Part shown: piece by piece, positions 6,208-19,422 of the stretch | Position numbering within the stretch: the first letter of the stretch is position 1 | Layout of the letters: each line of letters starts with the position of its first letter | From: Archaeoglobales archaeon | GTDB taxonomy: Archaea; Halobacteriota; Archaeoglobi; Archaeoglobales; Archaeoglobaceae | NCBI GenBank assembly: GCA_030055525.1 | Contig: JASFYJ010000001.1 | Location: forward strand, 152,616 to 216,615 | Reading direction: 5' to 3' | DNA: 64,000 nucleotides | Position numbers and translations under genes: made by a program | Notes under the pieces: generated by a model | Database searches by the model: none | The model's input: the letters and a program-made list of their open reading frames with translations, nothing else | Told to the model about the DNA's origin: nothing

Positions 6208-6618
6208 ATGGATGAATTGGAAGAATTGAGACTGAAGAAGATGAAGGAAATAATGGAAAAAGCTCTAAAAGATGCGCAAAATCAAAATAAAACCCAAATA
6301 GATTCCCCACAACATGCGGATTCAAGGAACTTCGATGAGCTTGTTTCAAAAAACACGAATGTGGTTGCAGACTTCTGGGCTGAGTGGTGTGGACCATGCA
6401 GGATGGTAGCTCCAATTGTAGATGAGCTTGCTAAAGAGTATGCCGGAAAAGTTTTGTTTTTGAAGGTGAACACAGACCAAAATCCGAAACTTGCTGCAAG
6501 ATTTGGAATAACTGCAATACCGACGCTATTATTTTTTAAAAACGGGAGAGTTGTTGATAGAGTAGTTGGCGCTTTACCAAAAAGAGATCTAAAAAGATGG
6601 ATAGAAAAAAATATATAA
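6208..6618 (+). CDS. trxA: thioredoxin with charged N-terminal extension
   Basis: The C-terminal ~95 residues are a canonical thioredoxin: ADFWAEWCGPCRMVAP with redox cysteines C61 and C64, the cis-proline motif AIPTLLFF, and the closing G-x-x-x-K helix. It would reduce disulfides in cytosolic proteins. The first ~40 residues are a Lys/Glu-rich helix and a Gln/Asn-rich linker not found in minimal thioredoxins (about 105 aa). No signal peptide or membrane anchor is present, so it is cytosolic. Cotranscription with neighbours is unlikely, since the next genes are on the other strand. A VKOR-like protein at 32.7 kb could be a partner of some thioredoxin-fold protein. Confidence 0.92.
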   Translation: MDELEELRLKKMKEIMEKALKDAQNQNKTQIDSPQHADSRNFDELVSKNTNVVADFWAEWCGPCRMVAPIVDELAKEYAGKVLFLKVNTDQNPKLAARFGITAIPTLLFFKNGRVVDRVVGALPKRDLKRWIEKNI

Positions 6619-6620
6619 AA

Positions 6621-6902
6621 TCATTTTTTCTTGAATTTTTCTAGGAAGTCTCCTATAATCGTTCCAACTATGAAGAAAAGTGCAAAAATTATTGCTAGGA
6701 TCACAAAGCCTATCGTAGCGCCAAGGGTCATTGCTATTAATGATCCCCCAACTAGGAACGCTCCTATAAGCCCAAAGATAACTCCAAATATTACACCTAT
6801 TATAAACGCGTTTTTGAACATCTTTACTCTGTCCTCTTTCCCTGGTCTGACGTAGCCGTAAACTATCCCGAGGAACAGCAGGAGCAATGCTAGCAGTTCC
6901 AT
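6621..6902 (-). CDS. small membrane protein, unknown
   Basis: A 93-residue protein with three hydrophobic segments: one at the N-terminus (residues 1-18), a Gly/Phe/Val-rich one around 32-55 and a long one around 58-85, closing with FLEKFKKK. The glycine-rich pattern resembles small glycine-zipper membrane proteins, but no family is recognised. It ends 3 nt after the thioredoxin stop on the opposite strand. Confidence 0.5.
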   Translation of the reverse strand: MELLALLLLFLGIVYGYVRPGKEDRVKMFKNAFIIGVIFGVIFGLIGAFLVGGSLIAMTLGATIGFVILAIIFALFFIVGTIIGDFLEKFKKK

Positions 6903-13517: not shown

Positions 13518-13742
13518 ATGCCTAAAATAATTGAAGCGATCTACGAAGACGGAGTGTTCAAGCCACTGGAGAAGGTTGATCTTAAGAGAGGTGTAAAAGT
13601 TCGAGTTTTTCTCGAAGAAAGGGGAATCATAACTGAATCACTTATAATTGAGCTCGAAAAAATTCTTAAAAATTTGCCCAAACCCAAAGTGAGGCCAGAA
13701 GATCTTGAAGAGGCTTATTATGCTGGAAAAATGCTTTATTGA
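13518..13742 (+). CDS. AF2212/DUF104 family antitoxin, cassette 1
   Basis: A 74-residue protein of the AF2212-like (DUF104, PF01954) antitoxin family. The first ~22 residues ([20 protein letters not shown]) are shared with the other five copies in the array and form the short beta-rich N-terminal part; the C-terminal ~45 residues, with a helix rich in Glu/Lys/Leu, are unique and should wrap the cognate toxin. It overlaps the toxin start by 23 nt. The pairing with a PIN toxin is typical of archaeal VapBC-like modules. Confidence 0.85.
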
Positions 13743-14163
13743 TGCTTCAGCACTTTTGGAGATTATACTGTGGAAGAGAACTGAACTCTTGCGGAAACTG
13801 TCAAACTACGTTTCATACACCTCTGTAAATGTCCTTGAGGAAGCCGCATTTAAAATTATTTATTCCAGCATAGCAGAGGATAAAATTGGCTTTTTTAAGA
13901 TGAAAGAGAAATTCGAGAAAGATTATTCCATAGATGTTTTAATCAGCAGACTCCATGCATTGAACCTCTTGAAAAATTATATGCTTGTGCTCGAAATTAC
14001 CGAACAAATCTTTGACACAGCGAAGAAGATCATCACAGAATATAGACTTCTTCCAAACGACGCCTTAATAGCTGCGACATGCAAGCATTATGGAATAAGG
14101 AAAATAGCTACCTTCGATGAGGATTTTAAAAGAGTAGATTTCCTCGAGGTTTTGGAGCTTTAA
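13720..14163 (+). CDS. PIN-domain toxin (VapC-like), cassette 1
   Basis: A 147-residue PIN-domain ribonuclease, presumed toxin of the preceding antitoxin. The four acidic active-site positions are present: Asp in FIDAS, Glu in LEEAAF, Asp in PNDALIA and Asp in ATFDED. The last 38 residues are almost identical to those of the other four toxins, whereas the N-terminal ~110 residues are unrelated at sequence level. I start it at ATG 13720, preceded by GAAGAGG, instead of the TTG at 13705. Target RNA is unknown; many VapC enzymes cut tRNA or rRNA. Confidence 0.85.
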
Positions 14164-14239
14164 TTTCTTTAGCTCGACACATCAATGAACTCTTTTAAAT
14201 CCTAAGCTTTCTCTCTTTTAGTTGCTCAGCGAAAAGCTG

Positions 14240-14286
14240 AAAAAGTTAAGCGAAACCTATTTCTATTCTCAAAGCGAACTAAATCT
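14240..14286 (+). promoter_or_regulatory. conserved cassette promoter 2
   Basis: GTTAAGCGAAACCTATTTC followed by TATTCTCAAAGCGAACTAA precedes the second antitoxin. The same BRE/TATA-like block occurs upstream of all cassettes, with the start codon about 25 nt downstream of the TATA-like part. Confidence 0.5.
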
Positions 14287-14493
14287 ATGCCTAAAATAAT
14301 TGAAGCGATTTACGAAGACGGAGTATTCAAACCATTGGAGAAAGTTAATTTGAAGCCCGGAGAGAGGGCGAAGATCATGATTGTGGCGATAGATGACCTG
14401 ATAAATGAGTTTTACGGCTTAATCAACTCAGATCTAACGCTTGAAGATATTAAAAAAGCAAGATACGAGGCCAAAGGATGGAGAAGGTTCTAA
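14287..14493 (+). CDS. AF2212/DUF104 family antitoxin, cassette 2
   Basis: A 68-residue antitoxin with the shared N-terminus (to about residue 30 it differs from cassette 5 by only two residues) and a unique C-terminal half containing [21 protein letters not shown]. It ends 16 nt inside the toxin gene. The DNA differences from the other copies within the conserved block are mostly at third codon positions. Confidence 0.85.
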
Positions 14494-14936
14494 TTGACAC
14501 AAATGTGCTGGTTAATTTTCTTCTTAGAACAAAGTTTTCCGAAAAGTCTAAAGAGATCATAAAGACCGCCTTAACCCTATACTTTCCAGTAATCTTCGTA
14601 AACATCTTTGAGGAGGCAATATTTATACTTATAAGGGAAGAACTAAAATCTAAAGGCATTTCTGAGTTCTACGATCAAAAAGAATTTTTAGAGAAGCACG
14701 GTTATGAAAATCTCTTCATCCACAGAAAGTTCATGGATTTTCTTAGAAAGGCAGAAATCAATGTTCTGGAAAATAGATTTGAATCTCGTGATTTTTTGTG
14801 GATTTTGGAAGAGTATAGGCTTTTCCCAAACGACGCTTTAATAGCTGCAACTTGCAAGCATTATGGAATAAAAAAGATCGCTACTTTCGACGAAGACTTC
14901 AAGAGGGTTGATTTCCTCGAGGTTTTGGAGCTTTAG
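14478..14936 (+). CDS. PIN-domain toxin (VapC-like), cassette 2
   Basis: A 152-residue PIN-domain protein. Acidic residues: Asp in LIDTNVLV, Glu in FEEAIF, Asp in PNDALIA, Asp in ATFDED. The N-terminal and middle parts are specific to this cassette (a longer insert with [17 protein letters not shown]), the 38-residue C-terminus is the common one, with Phe replacing Leu before PNDAL. A GAGG element lies 7 nt before the ATG. Expected role is RNA cleavage when released from its antitoxin. Confidence 0.85.
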
Positions 14937-14958
14937 AATTTATTTTCATTTAATCCGC

Positions 14959-15006
14959 CTGCTAAGAAGTGCGCAACTCGCAGAGTTGCGGTGAAGTAGC
15001 GAACGC
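14959..15006. repeat. G+C-rich spacer hairpin element, copy C
   Basis: Runs from CTGCTAAGAAGTGC to GCGAACGC and contains the perfect hairpin GCAACTC-GCA-GAGTTGC. It lies between cassettes 2 and 3, followed by TTCTTGTAATTCTA, a tail shared with copy E. Confidence 0.55.
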
Positions 15007-15050
15007 CAGATTCTTGTAATTCTACCCCTTAGACTTAACCCAAGAAAGAA

Positions 15051-15098
15051 TGAAAAGTTAAGCGAAACATATTTCTATTCTTAAGGCGAACTAAATCC
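15051..15098 (+). promoter_or_regulatory. conserved cassette promoter 3
   Basis: GTTAAGCGAAACATATTTC and the following TATTCTTAAGGCGAACTAA before the third antitoxin repeat the common promoter block, with one change in the TATA-like part. Confidence 0.5.
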
Positions 15099-15299
15099 AT
15101 GCCAAAAATCATTGAAGCAATCTACGAAGATGGAGTGTTCAAACCATTGGAGAAGGTTGATTTAAAAGATGGAGAGAAAGTGAGAGTGGAAATAAAGAAA
15201 GACATAGATCGGTTGAGAGGAAAGTATAAAGCCAAGCTTCCCCAGATGGTCGAGCTAAAGGATGAAATTTATGACAGAAGGTGCCATCTTCATAGATAG
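15099..15299 (+). CDS. AF2212/DUF104 family antitoxin, cassette 3
   Basis: A 66-residue antitoxin with the common N-terminal ~30 residues and a unique basic C-terminus (IDRLRGKYKAKLPQMVELKDE). It overlaps the toxin by 29 nt, the longest overlap of the array. Confidence 0.83.
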   Translation: MPKIIEAIYEDGVFKPLEKVDLKDGEKVRVEIKKDIDRLRGKYKAKLPQMVELKDEIYDRRCHLHR

Positions 15300-15723
15300 T
15301 TCCGCGTTTCTGTCTTTTTTCATGGAGGGCATTGATTTATTCCAGAAGCTTTCTGGTGAGCTCGTTACTTCTGTAAATGTGATTGAGGAGGTAGTTTATA
15401 TCCTTATAAAGGAAAAAGCCCGAGAAATCACTAAGATGGATAAACACTATGATCTTTTGATTTACCTTCGAGAAAATCCTGAAACCACATCAAAAATCGC
15501 AGAAGAAGTTATTTCTGACATTTCAGCTATTATCGATTACTTTGGAATTATGGTGTTGCCAACCGCAAGATATGAGGAGATGTTTGAAATCATCAAAAAA
15601 TACGGTTTACTTCCAAACGACGCTTTAATAGCTGCGACTTGCAAGCATTATGGAATCAGGAAAATAGCAACATTCGACGAAGACTTCAAAAGGGTTGATT
15701 TTCTAGAGGTTTTGGAGCTTTAG
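15271..15723 (+). CDS. PIN-domain toxin (VapC-like), cassette 3
   Basis: A 150-residue PIN-domain protein with Asp in FIDSS, Glu in IEEVVY, Asp in PNDALIA and Asp in ATFDED. The C-terminal 38 residues are identical to those of cassette 1. I use ATG 15271 because an AAAGG element is correctly spaced for it; the ATG at 15262 is only three bases from that element. The middle of the protein (residues 40-110) resembles none of the sibling toxins. Confidence 0.84.
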   Translation: MTEGAIFIDSSAFLSFFMEGIDLFQKLSGELVTSVNVIEEVVYILIKEKAREITKMDKHYDLLIYLRENPETTSKIAEEVISDISAIIDYFGIMVLPTARYEEMFEIIKKYGLLPNDALIAATCKHYGIRKIATFDEDFKRVDFLEVLEL

Positions 15724-15758
15724 AATTCTTTTTTACAAGCGGATCTTAAAATGTTTAA

Positions 15759-15803
15759 GCTTGCAATGAGCTGTGCAATCCAAAAGTGCTTAGTAGTGAA
15801 TGC
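15759..15803. repeat. G+C-rich spacer hairpin element, copy D (degenerate)
   Basis: GCTTGCAATGAGCTGTGCAA then a linker and GCTTAGTAGTGAATGC between cassettes 3 and 4 aligns with the other copies but has lost most stem pairing; the GAACGC end has become GAATGC. Confidence 0.4.
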
Positions 15804-15824
15804 TAATTTTCTTAATTTTTTAGC

Positions 15825-15872
15825 CAATAAACCTATCGAAACCTATTTCTATTTTCAAAGCAAACTAAATTC
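15825..15872 (+). promoter_or_regulatory. conserved cassette promoter 4
   Basis: Same block as promoter 1 (AGCCAATAAACC, then CGAAACCTATTTCTATT, then CAAAG), placed about 25 nt before the fourth antitoxin start. Confidence 0.5.
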
Positions 15873-16058
15873 ATGGCAAAGATCATTGAAGCGATCTACG
15901 AGAATGGCGTTTTCAAACCATTGGAGAAGGTTGAGCTAAAGGATGGGGAAAGAGTTAAAATAAGGATTGGAAATGTCGTAGAAAGAACAAGGGGGATAAT
16001 TAAAGGGTGTGATATGGATAAAATAATAAAGGAGGTTGAAAATGGAAGTTTTCTTTGA
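15873..16058 (+). CDS. AF2212/DUF104 family antitoxin, cassette 4
   Basis: The shortest and most divergent antitoxin of the array, 61 residues. The common N-terminus is present with Ala for Pro at position 2 and Asn for Asp at 11. The C-terminus ([20 protein letters not shown]) resembles that of cassette 5 slightly ([15 protein letters not shown]), so these two cores may share ancestry. It overlaps the toxin by 17 nt. Confidence 0.83.
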
Positions 16059-16461
16059 TTCAAATGTTTTTCTGCATCATTTAGCCAACACTCGTGAAGT
16101 TGCGAGCAAATTGCTTGAAGACGTTGAAAACGGCAAGATTACTGGATTTATCAACGACGTAGTAGTTTCTGAGGTAATTTATGGATATCTGCGTGCTTTA
16201 ACGAATTTAAAGCCCCATCAACTTCAATCAAAACTACCCAAAATCGATTTTGATCTCAGCCCCATTAAGGACTTGCTCAGTTTGTTTCGAGTTCTTTCCT
16301 GCAGCTTTGGTGTGGAAGTTGCTGAAATCGTCGAGAAATACAAGCTGCTCCCGAATGACGCTTTAATAGCTGTGACTTGCAAGCACTACGGAATAAAAAA
16401 GATCGGTACTTTCGACGAAGACTTCAAGAGGGTAGATTTCCTCGAGGTTTTAGAGCTTTAG
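16042..16461 (+). CDS. PIN-domain toxin (VapC-like), cassette 4
   Basis: A 139-residue PIN-domain protein, the shortest toxin here. Asp in FFDSN, Glu in VSEVIYGY, Asp in PNDALIA and Asp in GTFDED give the complete acidic set. In the common C-terminus it has two private changes (AVTCKHY and KKIGTFDE). A perfect AGGAGG ribosome binding site 6 nt before ATG 16042 fixes the start. Confidence 0.85.
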
Positions 16462-16482
16462 AATTTATTTTCATTAATCCAC

Positions 16483-16527
16483 GTGCTACGAAGTGAGCAA
16501 TCTCAAGGATAGCGAAGCGGCGAACGC
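16483..16527. repeat. G+C-rich spacer hairpin element, copy E
   Basis: GTGCTACGAAGTGAGCAA, a short linker, then GATAGCGAAGCGGCGAACGC between cassettes 4 and 5. It shares both the core and the downstream TTCTTGTAATTCTA tail with copy C. Confidence 0.5.
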
Positions 16528-16570
16528 AACTTCTTGTAATTCTATCCTTTAGACCACCTAGAAAGAATGA

Positions 16571-16615
16571 AAAGTTAAGCGAAACCTATTTCTATTCTTA
16601 AAACAAACTATATTC
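16571..16615 (+). promoter_or_regulatory. conserved cassette promoter 5
   Basis: AAGTTAAGCGAAACCTATTT and the following CTATTCTTAAAACAAACTA repeats the common promoter block directly before the fifth antitoxin. Confidence 0.5.
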
Positions 16616-16813
16616 ATGCCTAAGATAATCGAAGCAATTTACGAAGACGGAGTTTTCAAACCTCTGGAGAAAGTTAATTTGAAGCCCGGGGAGAGGGTAA
16701 AAATTAGACTCGAAGATGCGGATTCCATAGTAGAAGAAGTTTTCGGTATCCTGAAGGGAAAGGACACAAATAAAGCTCTCAAAGAGTTGGAAAATGAATG
16801 GGGTTTTTGTTGA
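16616..16813 (+). CDS. AF2212/DUF104 family antitoxin, cassette 5
   Basis: A 65-residue antitoxin: common N-terminal ~30 residues, then a unique acidic stretch ([16 protein letters not shown]) and a C-terminal [13 protein letters not shown]. It overlaps its toxin by 20 nt. Confidence 0.84.
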
Positions 16814-17225
16814 TTCCTCTGTTTTTCTTAAAGTTTTAGAGGGAAACGAAAAAGTCAAGGAGTCATTTAAGTCCCTGATAAGAAAAGAGAGATTGTATCG
16901 TAATGCAATCGTTTACAGCGAGGTTCTTTATGTGTTTATAAAGCTAAAGACGGGCAAAAAGAGTTACGAGATCAGAAGTCAACCGGAGATCATCAAATCC
17001 AGCGAAAAAGAGCTTCAAAAACTGTTTGAATTCCTTAACTTAGCGCACTCGCTACCGATAACTGAAGAAGTGGAAATGATCTCTGCGAGCTTAATGAAGG
17101 AATATGGTTTGTTGCCAAACGACGCCTTAATAGCTGCGACCTGCAAGCATTATGGAATAAGGAAAATAGCCACCTTCGACGAGGATTTTAAAAGAGTAGA
17201 TTTTCTGGAAATTTTGGAGCTTTAA
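16794..17225 (+). CDS. PIN-domain toxin (VapC-like), cassette 5
   Basis: A 143-residue PIN-domain protein: Asp in FVDSSVFL, Glu in YSEVLYV, Asp in PNDALIA, Asp in ATFDED. The common 38-residue end has one change (Ile for Val in LEILEL). Both the DNA of this end and the spacer that follows are closest to those of cassette 1, although the cores of the two toxins are unrelated. Confidence 0.85.
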
Positions 17226-17300
17226 TTTCTTTAGCTTGACTCATCAACGAACTCTTGCAATTCCTAAGTTTTCTCTTTTTAATCGCTCAGCGAAGGCTGA

Positions 17301-17346
17301 AAAAGTTAAGCGAAATCTATTTCTATTTCCAAAGCGAACTAAATCT
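17301..17346 (+). promoter_or_regulatory. conserved cassette promoter 6 (in front of truncated copy)
   Basis: The common BRE/TATA-like block (AAAAAGTTAAGCGAAATC, then TATTTCTATTTCC) is intact, so the truncated antitoxin frame could still be transcribed. Confidence 0.45.
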
Positions 17347-17451
17347 ATGCCTAAAATAATCGAAGCAATCTACGAAGACGGAGTATTCAAGCCATTGGAG
17401 AAGGTTAATTTGAGAAGCTTTTTTGAGAAATTTCACAACTTCAGGATTTAA
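17347..17451 (+). pseudogene. truncated AF2212/DUF104 antitoxin, cassette 6
   Basis: Reads the common antitoxin N-terminus for 22 residues (through EKVNL), then changes abruptly to an unrelated tail [12 protein letters not shown] and stops. The change coincides with the constant/variable border of the intact cassettes. The DNA of the tail is the reverse complement of the start of a RelE-like gene, so this copy lost its own core and toxin by recombination with a neighbouring relBE locus. A 34-residue peptide could still be made. Confidence 0.8.
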
Positions 17452-17469
17452 ATAAACCTCGTAGGTCAT
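17413..17469 (-). pseudogene. RelE-like toxin, N-terminal fragment only
   Basis: On the minus strand an ATG at 17469 overlaps the stop of the upstream antitoxin-like gene (ATGA) and reads [18 protein letters not shown], the typical start of archaeal RelE/ParE-type toxins (strand, then a Lys-rich helix). After about 18 codons the frame runs into the antisense of the truncated cassette-6 antitoxin. The catalytic part is missing, so the toxin is dead. Confidence 0.6.
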
Positions 17470-17678
17470 TTCAAAACTTCATCAAGTTTCTCGATCGGAA
17501 TAAAATCGCTAAAATCACCTTTTTTAATCGCTTCCTTATGTTTTCTGATTAATTCTTGCTCATCTGGAGTCAAAATCGAGTCCGCAAGATCTTCTATGGC
17601 ATCTTCTATCCTTTCGATCCTCTTCTTTATCTCTCTAAGCTCATTGAGTATGTCAATCAGAGATATCGATTCTTGCAT
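17466..17678 (-). CDS. RelB-like antitoxin, orphaned
   Basis: A 70-residue protein: a coiled-coil-like first half (ILNELREIKKRIERIEDAIE) and a C-terminus LTPDEQELIRKHKEAIKKGD ending FIPIEKLDEVLK. This arrangement is common in archaeal antitoxins that precede RelE-type toxins, and a truncated relE-like frame follows with an ATGA overlap. With the toxin destroyed, the antitoxin remains as an orphan. Family assignment rests on architecture and context rather than a strong motif. Confidence 0.55.
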   Translation of the reverse strand: MQESISLIDILNELREIKKRIERIEDAIEDLADSILTPDEQELIRKHKEAIKKGDFSDFIPIEKLDEVLK

Positions 17679-17743
17679 GAATAAAGTTGGCCGTTGTGGG
17701 ATTCATAGATTTTCATCCCTTTCCCCTTCAATCTATTAGATGC

Positions 17744-18832
17744 TCATCGAGAGCTTTCAGGGGCAACAGAGCCCCACATCTGAAGGTTTAGTACAGCTAC
17801 AACATCTCTATCCATTACAAAACCGCATTCTTCGCGTTTCATTATACTGCCATCATAGGAAGCCATGCTTCCTGAGCAGAGTGGGCAGGTTTTGGATGAA
17901 TTGGCCTGATTGATATATTTTACCGGTAAGCCAAGCCATTTAAGCTTGTATTCGAGCATGAACTGGAATGTTCTTGCGTTCCATTTTGATAGCTTTCTGT
18001 TCACGTTTCTCGAGCCACTAAGAATTCGCCTCTTTACACCTTTCAGTTCTTCGAGAATCGCTCCGCATTTCATCTCTTTAAGCTCTCTCGCAATCCGCGC
18101 GGTTAGCTTGTGCATGAAGTTCCTTAGCCCTATTCTTCTCACACCCAGAATACTTTTTTAGCAGCTTCTTTGAGGTCAGAGGTTTAATCCTGGATAACTT
18201 TTGTATCTTCCGTCTTTTTACCTCGTAGACTCTGTGGATATGGTAAAGTTTTCTTAAGTCATAGCGCCTAATCTCGCCATCTATGAATGCCGTTATGTTC
18301 GTCAGGTTCACATCGAAGGAAGCCCACTTTTCCGCTTTAGGTTCAACATTCTTCCTGAACGTGATTATCAGCTCTTTCTCCGTTAAGATTAGTCCGCCGA
18401 TTCTATCAAAATCGCTCGGAATCCAGCTATACTTTCTTAAGTCAACTTCAAGATAGCGTTTATTCGGTTCAATGCTTATCCTCAATATTCCTTTTTTGAA
18501 GCTGAAGAGCGTGCTCTTGATGTAAACCGTTCTTTTAGTCATCTCGGGCTTACCTTCAGTTTTTCTCCTATTGTAGAGCGTTATCCAGCCCTTAACTAAG
18601 CCTATGACGGAGTTTATTGCTGAATCGACGTAGTGTTTTGAAAATCTCTAGTCTTTCAGCAGCTCTCTAAGTCTTTTCCTGTCTTCTCTATCGAATTCAA
18701 GGTGAGCCTTCCTGGAAATCTTGACATGCGATAGGATTACGTCTAAAACCTTCTGCTTAACTTTGAAGTATTCTTCGATTAAATCCCTTGGAGCTTCTAT
18801 TGGTATCTTGTAGCTTTTAACTGCTTCTACAA
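17744..18832 (-). pseudogene. tnpB: TnpB (IS605/IS607 OrfB RNA-guided nuclease), frameshifted
   Basis: Three pieces are readable. From about 18832: KSYKIPIEAPRDLIEEYF to RLRELLKD, then an in-frame TAG at 18648-18650 where a Trp is expected. From 18542: NRKYLEV-type strand region and the RuvC-I aspartate in ASFDVNLTNITAF. A frameshift near 18118 moves into the frame 18142-17744, which holds the RuvC-II glutamate region (ILEELKGVKRR), the zinc-ribbon cysteines (CPLC, and a degraded EECG) and the RuvC-III aspartate in DRDVVAVLNL. With one nonsense codon and one frameshift the protein is not made intact. All three catalytic acids survive, so inactivation looks recent. Confidence 0.8.
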
Positions 18833-18975
18833 CCTCTCAACCTCGCTCTTGGGATAGCGGAGCTTACCAGTCGGGAGCCTAACAGCTTTAATGATCCCCC
18901 TTCTTTGCTACTCCCAGAGAGTCTTAACCGAGATGTTAAATATCCTCGCAATCTTCAGATTAAAATTGAAGTGAT
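18831..18975 (-). pseudogene. IS607 resolvase, HTH domain fragment
   Basis: Reads KIARIFNISVKTLWE, an in-frame TAG (18908-18910), then QRRGIIKAVRLPTGKLRYP and KSEVERL. This is the MerR-like N-terminal domain of IS607-family serine resolvases, in which W-x-x-G-x-I/L and G-x-R-x-Y/F-P are the usual wing residues. The frame then runs straight into the TnpB N-terminus, with no catalytic serine domain. Confidence 0.65.
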
Positions 18976-19350
18976 CAAACTCTATTTAAAACCTATCGAT
19001 CTCAAAACTGCTGACTACAGCAAAAAACAGTTTAATGGGATTCGCTCCTCAAAGAGCGTGATTTTTAATACAAAGTTCGAGGATTTGCATTAGAACGAAA
19101 AAGGCTATCGATAATCAAAAGTTTGTTGATCTATTTCTCTAAAAAACTCAAAAACTTGAACCCTTTGTATTAACAAACTCCAGCTTGGAAACTTTCGAAT
19201 TCTTCTCCTGAGGTTGCCAACCGAGTTGCCAACTCTGAAAACATTCTAAGCGAAGATAAAATTCCACAACCTTCAAAACGAAAATCGAGCCATTCAAAAA
19301 ACCAAGAATCTAACGTTGGTCTTTCTGAAGTCTCAGATTACCGTAAGAAA
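18976..19350. other. spacer between IS607 remnant and tRNA-Ala
   Basis: About 375 nt without a credible gene. It holds two adjacent perfect hairpins, GGTT-GCC-AACC (19212-19222) and GAGTT-GCC-AACTC (19223-19235). No copy of the tRNA 3' end, which would mark an attachment site, is visible here. Confidence 0.45.
19212..19235. repeat. tandem GCC-loop hairpins
   Basis: Two back-to-back perfect inverted repeats, GGTTGCCAACC and GAGTTGCCAACTC, share the GTTGCCAAC core. The second uses the same GAGTTGC/GCAACTC arms as spacer element C in the toxin-antitoxin array. Confidence 0.45.
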
Positions 19351-19422
19351 TGGACTCGCCGGGATTTGAACCCGGGGCCTCCGCCTCGCAAAGGCGGCGC
19401 TCTACCGCTGAGCTACGAGCCC
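19351..19422 (-). tRNA. tRNA-Ala (UGC anticodon)
   Basis: The minus strand folds into a full cloverleaf: acceptor GGGCTCG/CGAGTCC with discriminator A, D arm with AGCTCAGCGGTAGAGC, anticodon stem CCGCC/GGCGG around loop TTTGCGA (anticodon TGC), and T arm with GGTTCAAATCC. CCA is not encoded and no intron is present. Anticodon TGC decodes GCN alanine codons. Confidence 0.93.

Follow-up and report, generated by a model that had tools for sequence, protein, structure and literature searches.

The window, a 64,000-nucleotide stretch of contig JASFYJ010000001.1, comes from an Archaeoglobales genome of 1.56 Mb that is 98.5% complete. It includes an array of toxin-antitoxin genes in which five complete vapBC cassettes (13518-17225) are followed by the head of a sixth vapB gene, starting at 17347 (Table 1). 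In each cassette an AF2212-like antitoxin gene, vapB, precedes the gene for a PIN-domain toxin, VapC. The two antitoxins that were compared with PF01954 matched it at 5e-19 (VapB2) and 4.3e-22 (VapB5), and all five VapC proteins matched the PIN family PF01850 (8e-18 to 1.5e-25). The cassettes have in common a segment that begins near -46 and takes in vapB as far as codon 22, together with the final 38 codons of vapC; the middles enclosed by this head and tail are mutually unrelated. From -40 to the ATG, identity is approximately 0.85-0.9 among the cassettes of the window and those of G053, a genome of the same genus. Because residues 1-34 of VapB5 align with the structure of AF2212 (2NWT), for which an AbrB-like DNA-binding ancestry has been argued (PMC2701414), the common VapB block probably carries the promoter and the DNA-binding part of the antitoxin. 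The core would then comprise the toxin-binding tail of VapB and the N-terminal part of VapC, such that a core kept whole would preserve a matched pair.

Table 1. Features of the vapBC array and the adjoining relBE remnant (window coordinates).
Feature	Position	Strand	Remarks
vapBC cassette 1	13518..14163	+	
vapBC cassette 2	14287..14936	+	against G051:C2: core 99%, tail 85%
vapBC cassette 3	15099..15723	+	
vapBC cassette 4	15873..16461	+	against G053 cassette 2: core 96%, head 83%
vapBC cassette 5	16616..17225	+	against G051:C28: core 95%, head 83%, tail 85%
Linker, cassette 5 to head of cassette 6	17226..17300	+	type as ahead of cassette 2 and of G053 cassette 2
Constant upstream block of cassette 6, GAAAYCTATTTCTATT, promoter-like position	17301..17346	+	common to all cassettes
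vapB6 head, codons 1 to 23/24, up to junction	17347..17417	+	94% of 17385-17417 to G053 cassette 5
Junction, GAAG in both parents	17414..17417		vapB allele TTTGAGAAGGGGG (G053 cassette 5) and relE TTTTGGAAGCTTTTT
relE remnant, first 18 codons, then one-base frameshift at T6 run, then junction	17414..17469	-	intact orthologue in G053 (L010)
relB, 70 aa, intact, solitary	17466..17678	-	86% aa to G053; 92% over 65 aa to G051
relB internal recombination breakpoint, type-2 middle and type-1 tail	17510..17517	-	18/18 then 16/16 informative sites

Cassette 6 consists of a head alone; the VapB tail and VapC are both missing, so that no complete antitoxin-toxin pair is present. Its reading frame (17347-17451) specifies 34 residues, the last of which, 24 through 34, are encoded by antisense relE. 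The original prediction held that the match to sibling antitoxins stops exactly at the border of constant and variable sequence. The match does run through residue 22-23 with nothing beyond, but similarity among the sibling cassettes themselves fades gradually over codons 23-32 (0.76, 0.61, 0.54 and 0.39 in successive 12-nt bins). To the left of the junction, positions 17115-17413 are 92.6% identical to the G053 array, and to the right, positions 17409-17691 (283 nt) are 90% identical to the relBE locus of the same genome. These two matches lie on separate G053 contigs, in agreement with the proposal that two unrelated toxin-antitoxin loci have been joined. The joined sequence was not found in the 56 other Archaeoglobales genomes (57 in all), and the 34-residue frame is probably without function, its product VapB6 probably being inert.

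The junction reads TTTGAGAAGCTTTTT, and the corresponding G053 sequences, given on the same strand, are TTTGAGAAGGGGG for vapB and TTTTGGAAGCTTTTT for relE. Both parents contain GAAG at this point, in keeping with the expectation of a short homology there; when such sequences were joined at random, at least four matching bases occurred in 2.2% of trials. The 4-nt match presupposes, however, that vapB6 was of the allele TTGAGAAG; with the TTGAAG of cassettes 2 and 5, almost nothing of it would remain. The GAAG microhomology is therefore suggestive only.

On the other side of the junction, the original reading of an antisense RelE start, overlapping a RelB-like gene by ATGA, was confirmed by the intact relBE locus of G053. 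There the reverse strand gives a complete RelE of 85 aa, ending in YDRL, whose sequence hits RelE chains of known structure, 1wmi being the best (E 1.5e-8), with 4fxe and others also matched. In the window the antitoxin gene overlaps relE by the same ATGA, and relE is incomplete: 18 native codons remain, and a homopolymer adjoining the junction has grown by one base, from T5 to T6. Both toxins are thus dead, as had been claimed, relE being reduced to its start and vapC6 being absent. Two other RelE genes in the genome are distant paralogues, each with its own partner. A RelE tail of the matching type was not found elsewhere in the 98.5% complete genome, which indicates that it has been lost and not moved. 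Two points of the original account required correction. The vapBC and relBE operons are convergent, tail to tail, instead of head to head, and the locus does not retain two antitoxin genes: VapB6 is a remnant of 22-23 residues whose toxin-binding part is wholly lost, leaving RelB as the sole plausible antitoxin. In substance, a recombination scar that killed both toxins, the original description is right.

The surviving RelB is itself a recombinant. Archaeoglobales relBE loci fall into two sets, with a RelB tail of either FIPLEKLDEAL or FIDAEDLCIE, each accompanied by a different RelE. In the window, a RelB middle of the FIDAEDLCIE set (type 2) is joined to a tail of the FIPLEKLDEAL set (type 1). 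At sites where G053 and G051 differ, relB agrees with G051 at 18/18 over positions 114-162 and with G053 at 16/16 over positions 169-200; the switch falls inside a GATTTT common to both types (window 17510-17517). A comparable situation is found in G021 (L020 and L035), where two relB genes with almost identical heads diverge in their tails and in the type of RelE. With the exchange in the vapBC array described below, swapped antitoxin heads are thus seen in two unrelated toxin-antitoxin families of these genomes. RelB gave no match above the cut-offs of curated RelB families. It may still bind a RelE, although this genome holds none of its type.

The right flank contains two further features. 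A broken, frameshifted TnpB gene occupies 17744-18960 on the minus strand, between relB and a tRNA. Directly downstream of this tRNA-Ala (19351-19422) lies a block of approximately 140 nt (19213-19350). Copies of it also follow other tRNA-Ala and tRNA-Val genes of this genome, G051 and G053; comparison of the region with Rfam yielded no family except tRNA.

We consider it likely that the feature is a deletion scar, in which vapB6 became joined to relE and the intervening DNA was lost. Both parents exist intact within the same genus, and the failure to find the missing part of RelE anywhere else favors a deletion between two convergent operons. The ancestral array would have had a sixth cassette aimed at a relBE operon on the opposite strand. 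At cassette 6, either a double-strand break or an attempted cassette conversion involving one side only may have been sealed by joining codon 23/24 of vapB6 to codon 18 of relE, probably via GAAG. The deletion would have removed all that followed in vapB6, the whole of vapC6 and the larger part of relE, leaving the VapB6 head with its promoter-like block and a solitary RelB. Such a junction would suggest microhomology-mediated end joining, which another archaeon, Saccharolobus islandicus, is reported to carry out (PMC12019639). No relative with a vapBC array facing relBE was found, and both G053 and G051 have the two loci on different contigs.

Since long-range gene order around the array varies between sister genomes, some weight also goes to the junction having arisen as one of the breakpoints when a larger inversion or translocation placed the array beside the relBE and tRNA-Ala region. 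In G053 the array has a different right flank (permease, thioredoxin and glycerol-1-phosphate dehydrogenase), made up of genes that the window genome carries on other contigs. The reciprocal product, however, a relE tail joined to the rest of vapB6 and vapC6, was sought in the genome and not found, and the one array remnant detected elsewhere in it (G000:C9) represents a different, decayed cassette. We therefore regard such a rearrangement as improbable. More doubtful still is that a segment carrying relBE and TnpB was inserted into cassette 6, the far part of which was lost later. The TnpB remnant does lie directly behind relB, and G051 has a relB gene close to a tRNA-Ala that is followed by the same 140-nt block, TnpB being absent there; yet no remainder of vapC was noticed on the right side, and relE is cut within its coding sequence, not at the end of an element. 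Misassembly across the repeated vapB heads appears very unlikely, as assemblers join through long shared words and the two sides share 4 nt only, even though the repeat unit measures approximately 110 nt and relatives have contigs that stop within the array, as G051 C27 does. Least credible is a conserved small gene, a truncated VapB with a role of its own: the upstream block and ATG are kept and short orphan heads do exist elsewhere, but residues 24-34 are antisense relE found nowhere else, the other orphan heads end differently, and no relative among the 57 genomes carries the 34-residue frame, leaving the scar reading intact.

Comparison of the array with sister genomes revealed a second process acting on the cassettes. 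Near-identical partners of the core (VapB tail plus N-terminal part of VapC) exist for cassette 4 in G053 and for cassettes 5 and 2 in G051. For cassettes 4, 5 and 2, respectively, core mismatch is 3.9, 5.1 and 1.2% and tail mismatch 6.9, 14.7 and 14.7%, with head mismatch at 17.0% for both cassettes 4 and 5; the divergence of core versus flank differs significantly in each case (Fisher p 2e-4, 1e-5 and 2e-8). Under selection alone, the common flanks should be the parts best conserved between partners, and the opposite is observed. Because the flanks diverge more than the matched cores, heads and tails have been swapped while the cores stayed whole. Tails are often nearest to the tail of another cassette; that of the G051 core-2 partner has 7 differences from cassette 1 versus 17 from its own partner, cassette 2. 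The last dense mismatch places one edge of the exchanged heads at 15944, in codon 24, and another at 16690, in codon 25. The tail edges, near 17111 and 14823, coincide with the opening codon(s) of the LLPNDA block. Across the order, heads with different cores in the same genome have a similarity of 0.81 (upstream 0.55), against 0.76 (upstream 0.46) for the same core in different genomes. Homogenization of heads within genomes is thus weak at this scale and was set aside, and the strong claim of exchange is confined to the sister genomes. Virus-borne cassettes were also considered and rejected, VapB relatives having been sought in viral contigs and not found.

The scar, at codon 23/24, is located 1-2 codons from the mapped head edges, and the original prediction took its breakpoint as a mark of where cassette exchange may normally end. 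In favor of this are the independently mapped edges at codons 24 and 25, and four other truncated heads that end near codons 23-25 in three genomes (G003 twice, G004 and G016), although this count is inflated, as a truncated cassette is recognizable solely by its surviving head, and some of the four are at contig ends (G016 L164 closely) or have limited downstream sequence. The ends are at codon 25 in G003 L165, codon 24 in G004 L120-989 and codon 23 in G016 L164; in the remaining case, G003 L117-3045, the head runs as far as codon 24 and a VapC tail follows with almost nothing between them, the core being missing. Short heads of G001, G002, G003, G004 and G037 that result from frameshifts or stops, with a core or toxin recognizable downstream, were left out of the comparison. 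Against this reading, the scar is an illegitimate join to non-homologous DNA, and other cassettes break elsewhere. A general hotspot at codons 23-25 was accordingly rejected: four heads fit, but others end at codons 30-35 (G018, G038 and G029), and the array remnant in the window's own genome (G000:C9) breaks within the core. An exchange border at the scar is therefore plausible but unproven, and a causal link between the two would be a further step; cassette exchange rests better on the sister-genome data than on the scar.

Several of these cassettes have unusual structures. Coreless cassettes, in which a VapB head leads almost directly to a VapC tail, are present on the minus strand of L117 (3045, the G003 case above) and of L044 (1287). 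The G000:C9 remnant (L068, about 6217-6750) consists of a degenerate VapC tail, a linker, a complete vapB of the G053 cassette-1 type and a VapC cut after approximately 30 residues. Cassette 4 of G053 (L109 10375-10985), which has relatives in G001, combines the common VapB head with a different PIN toxin that lacks the common tail.

Together, these observations allow us to propose, as a tentative model that we hold at somewhat short of even confidence, that Archaeoglobales vapBC arrays, and relBE in these genomes, behave as recombining cassette systems. Homology arms would be provided by the promoter-like block with the DNA-binding head of the antitoxin and by the C-terminal tail of the toxin, and between them cores would swap as units with their pairing kept; broken cassettes, this scar among them, would represent failed exchanges ending at the border of arm and core. 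The scar itself is ordinary gene decay and illustrates the loss of toxin genes with an antitoxin gene left over. The exchange suggests how toxin-antitoxin arrays could diversify without breaking the match between partners, the interacting parts moving as one block between common ends.

Elements of this locus resemble several known systems. In Archaeoglobus fulgidus, clusters of COG2880/DUF104 (AF2212-like, PF01954) and PIN genes comprise the same families, with tandem related copies and an AbrB-like antitoxin (Makarova et al. 2009, PMC2701414); the accessible part of that study describes tandem duplication of these clusters, and neither exchange of cores against heads and tails nor a fusion to relE was found in it. 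That study also treats solo antitoxins arising from toxin-antitoxin decay, to which a RelB without its toxin is similar, whereas here the end point of the deletion can be placed with a precision of a few bases and the antitoxin is recombinant. The intact G053 orthologue is like Pyrococcus horikoshii aRelE (1wmi) in sequence, in having the antitoxin first and in its ATGA overlap; the window copy, by comparison, retains 18 RelE codons and a chimeric RelB. Finally, hybrid systems that pair a MazE-like antitoxin with a RelE-like toxin (PMC2446400) likewise reflect the mixing of antitoxin and toxin parts from separate loci. In contrast to those hybrids, the exchange described here takes place within a family and at the DNA level, and the toxin-binding part of the antitoxin stays with its toxin.
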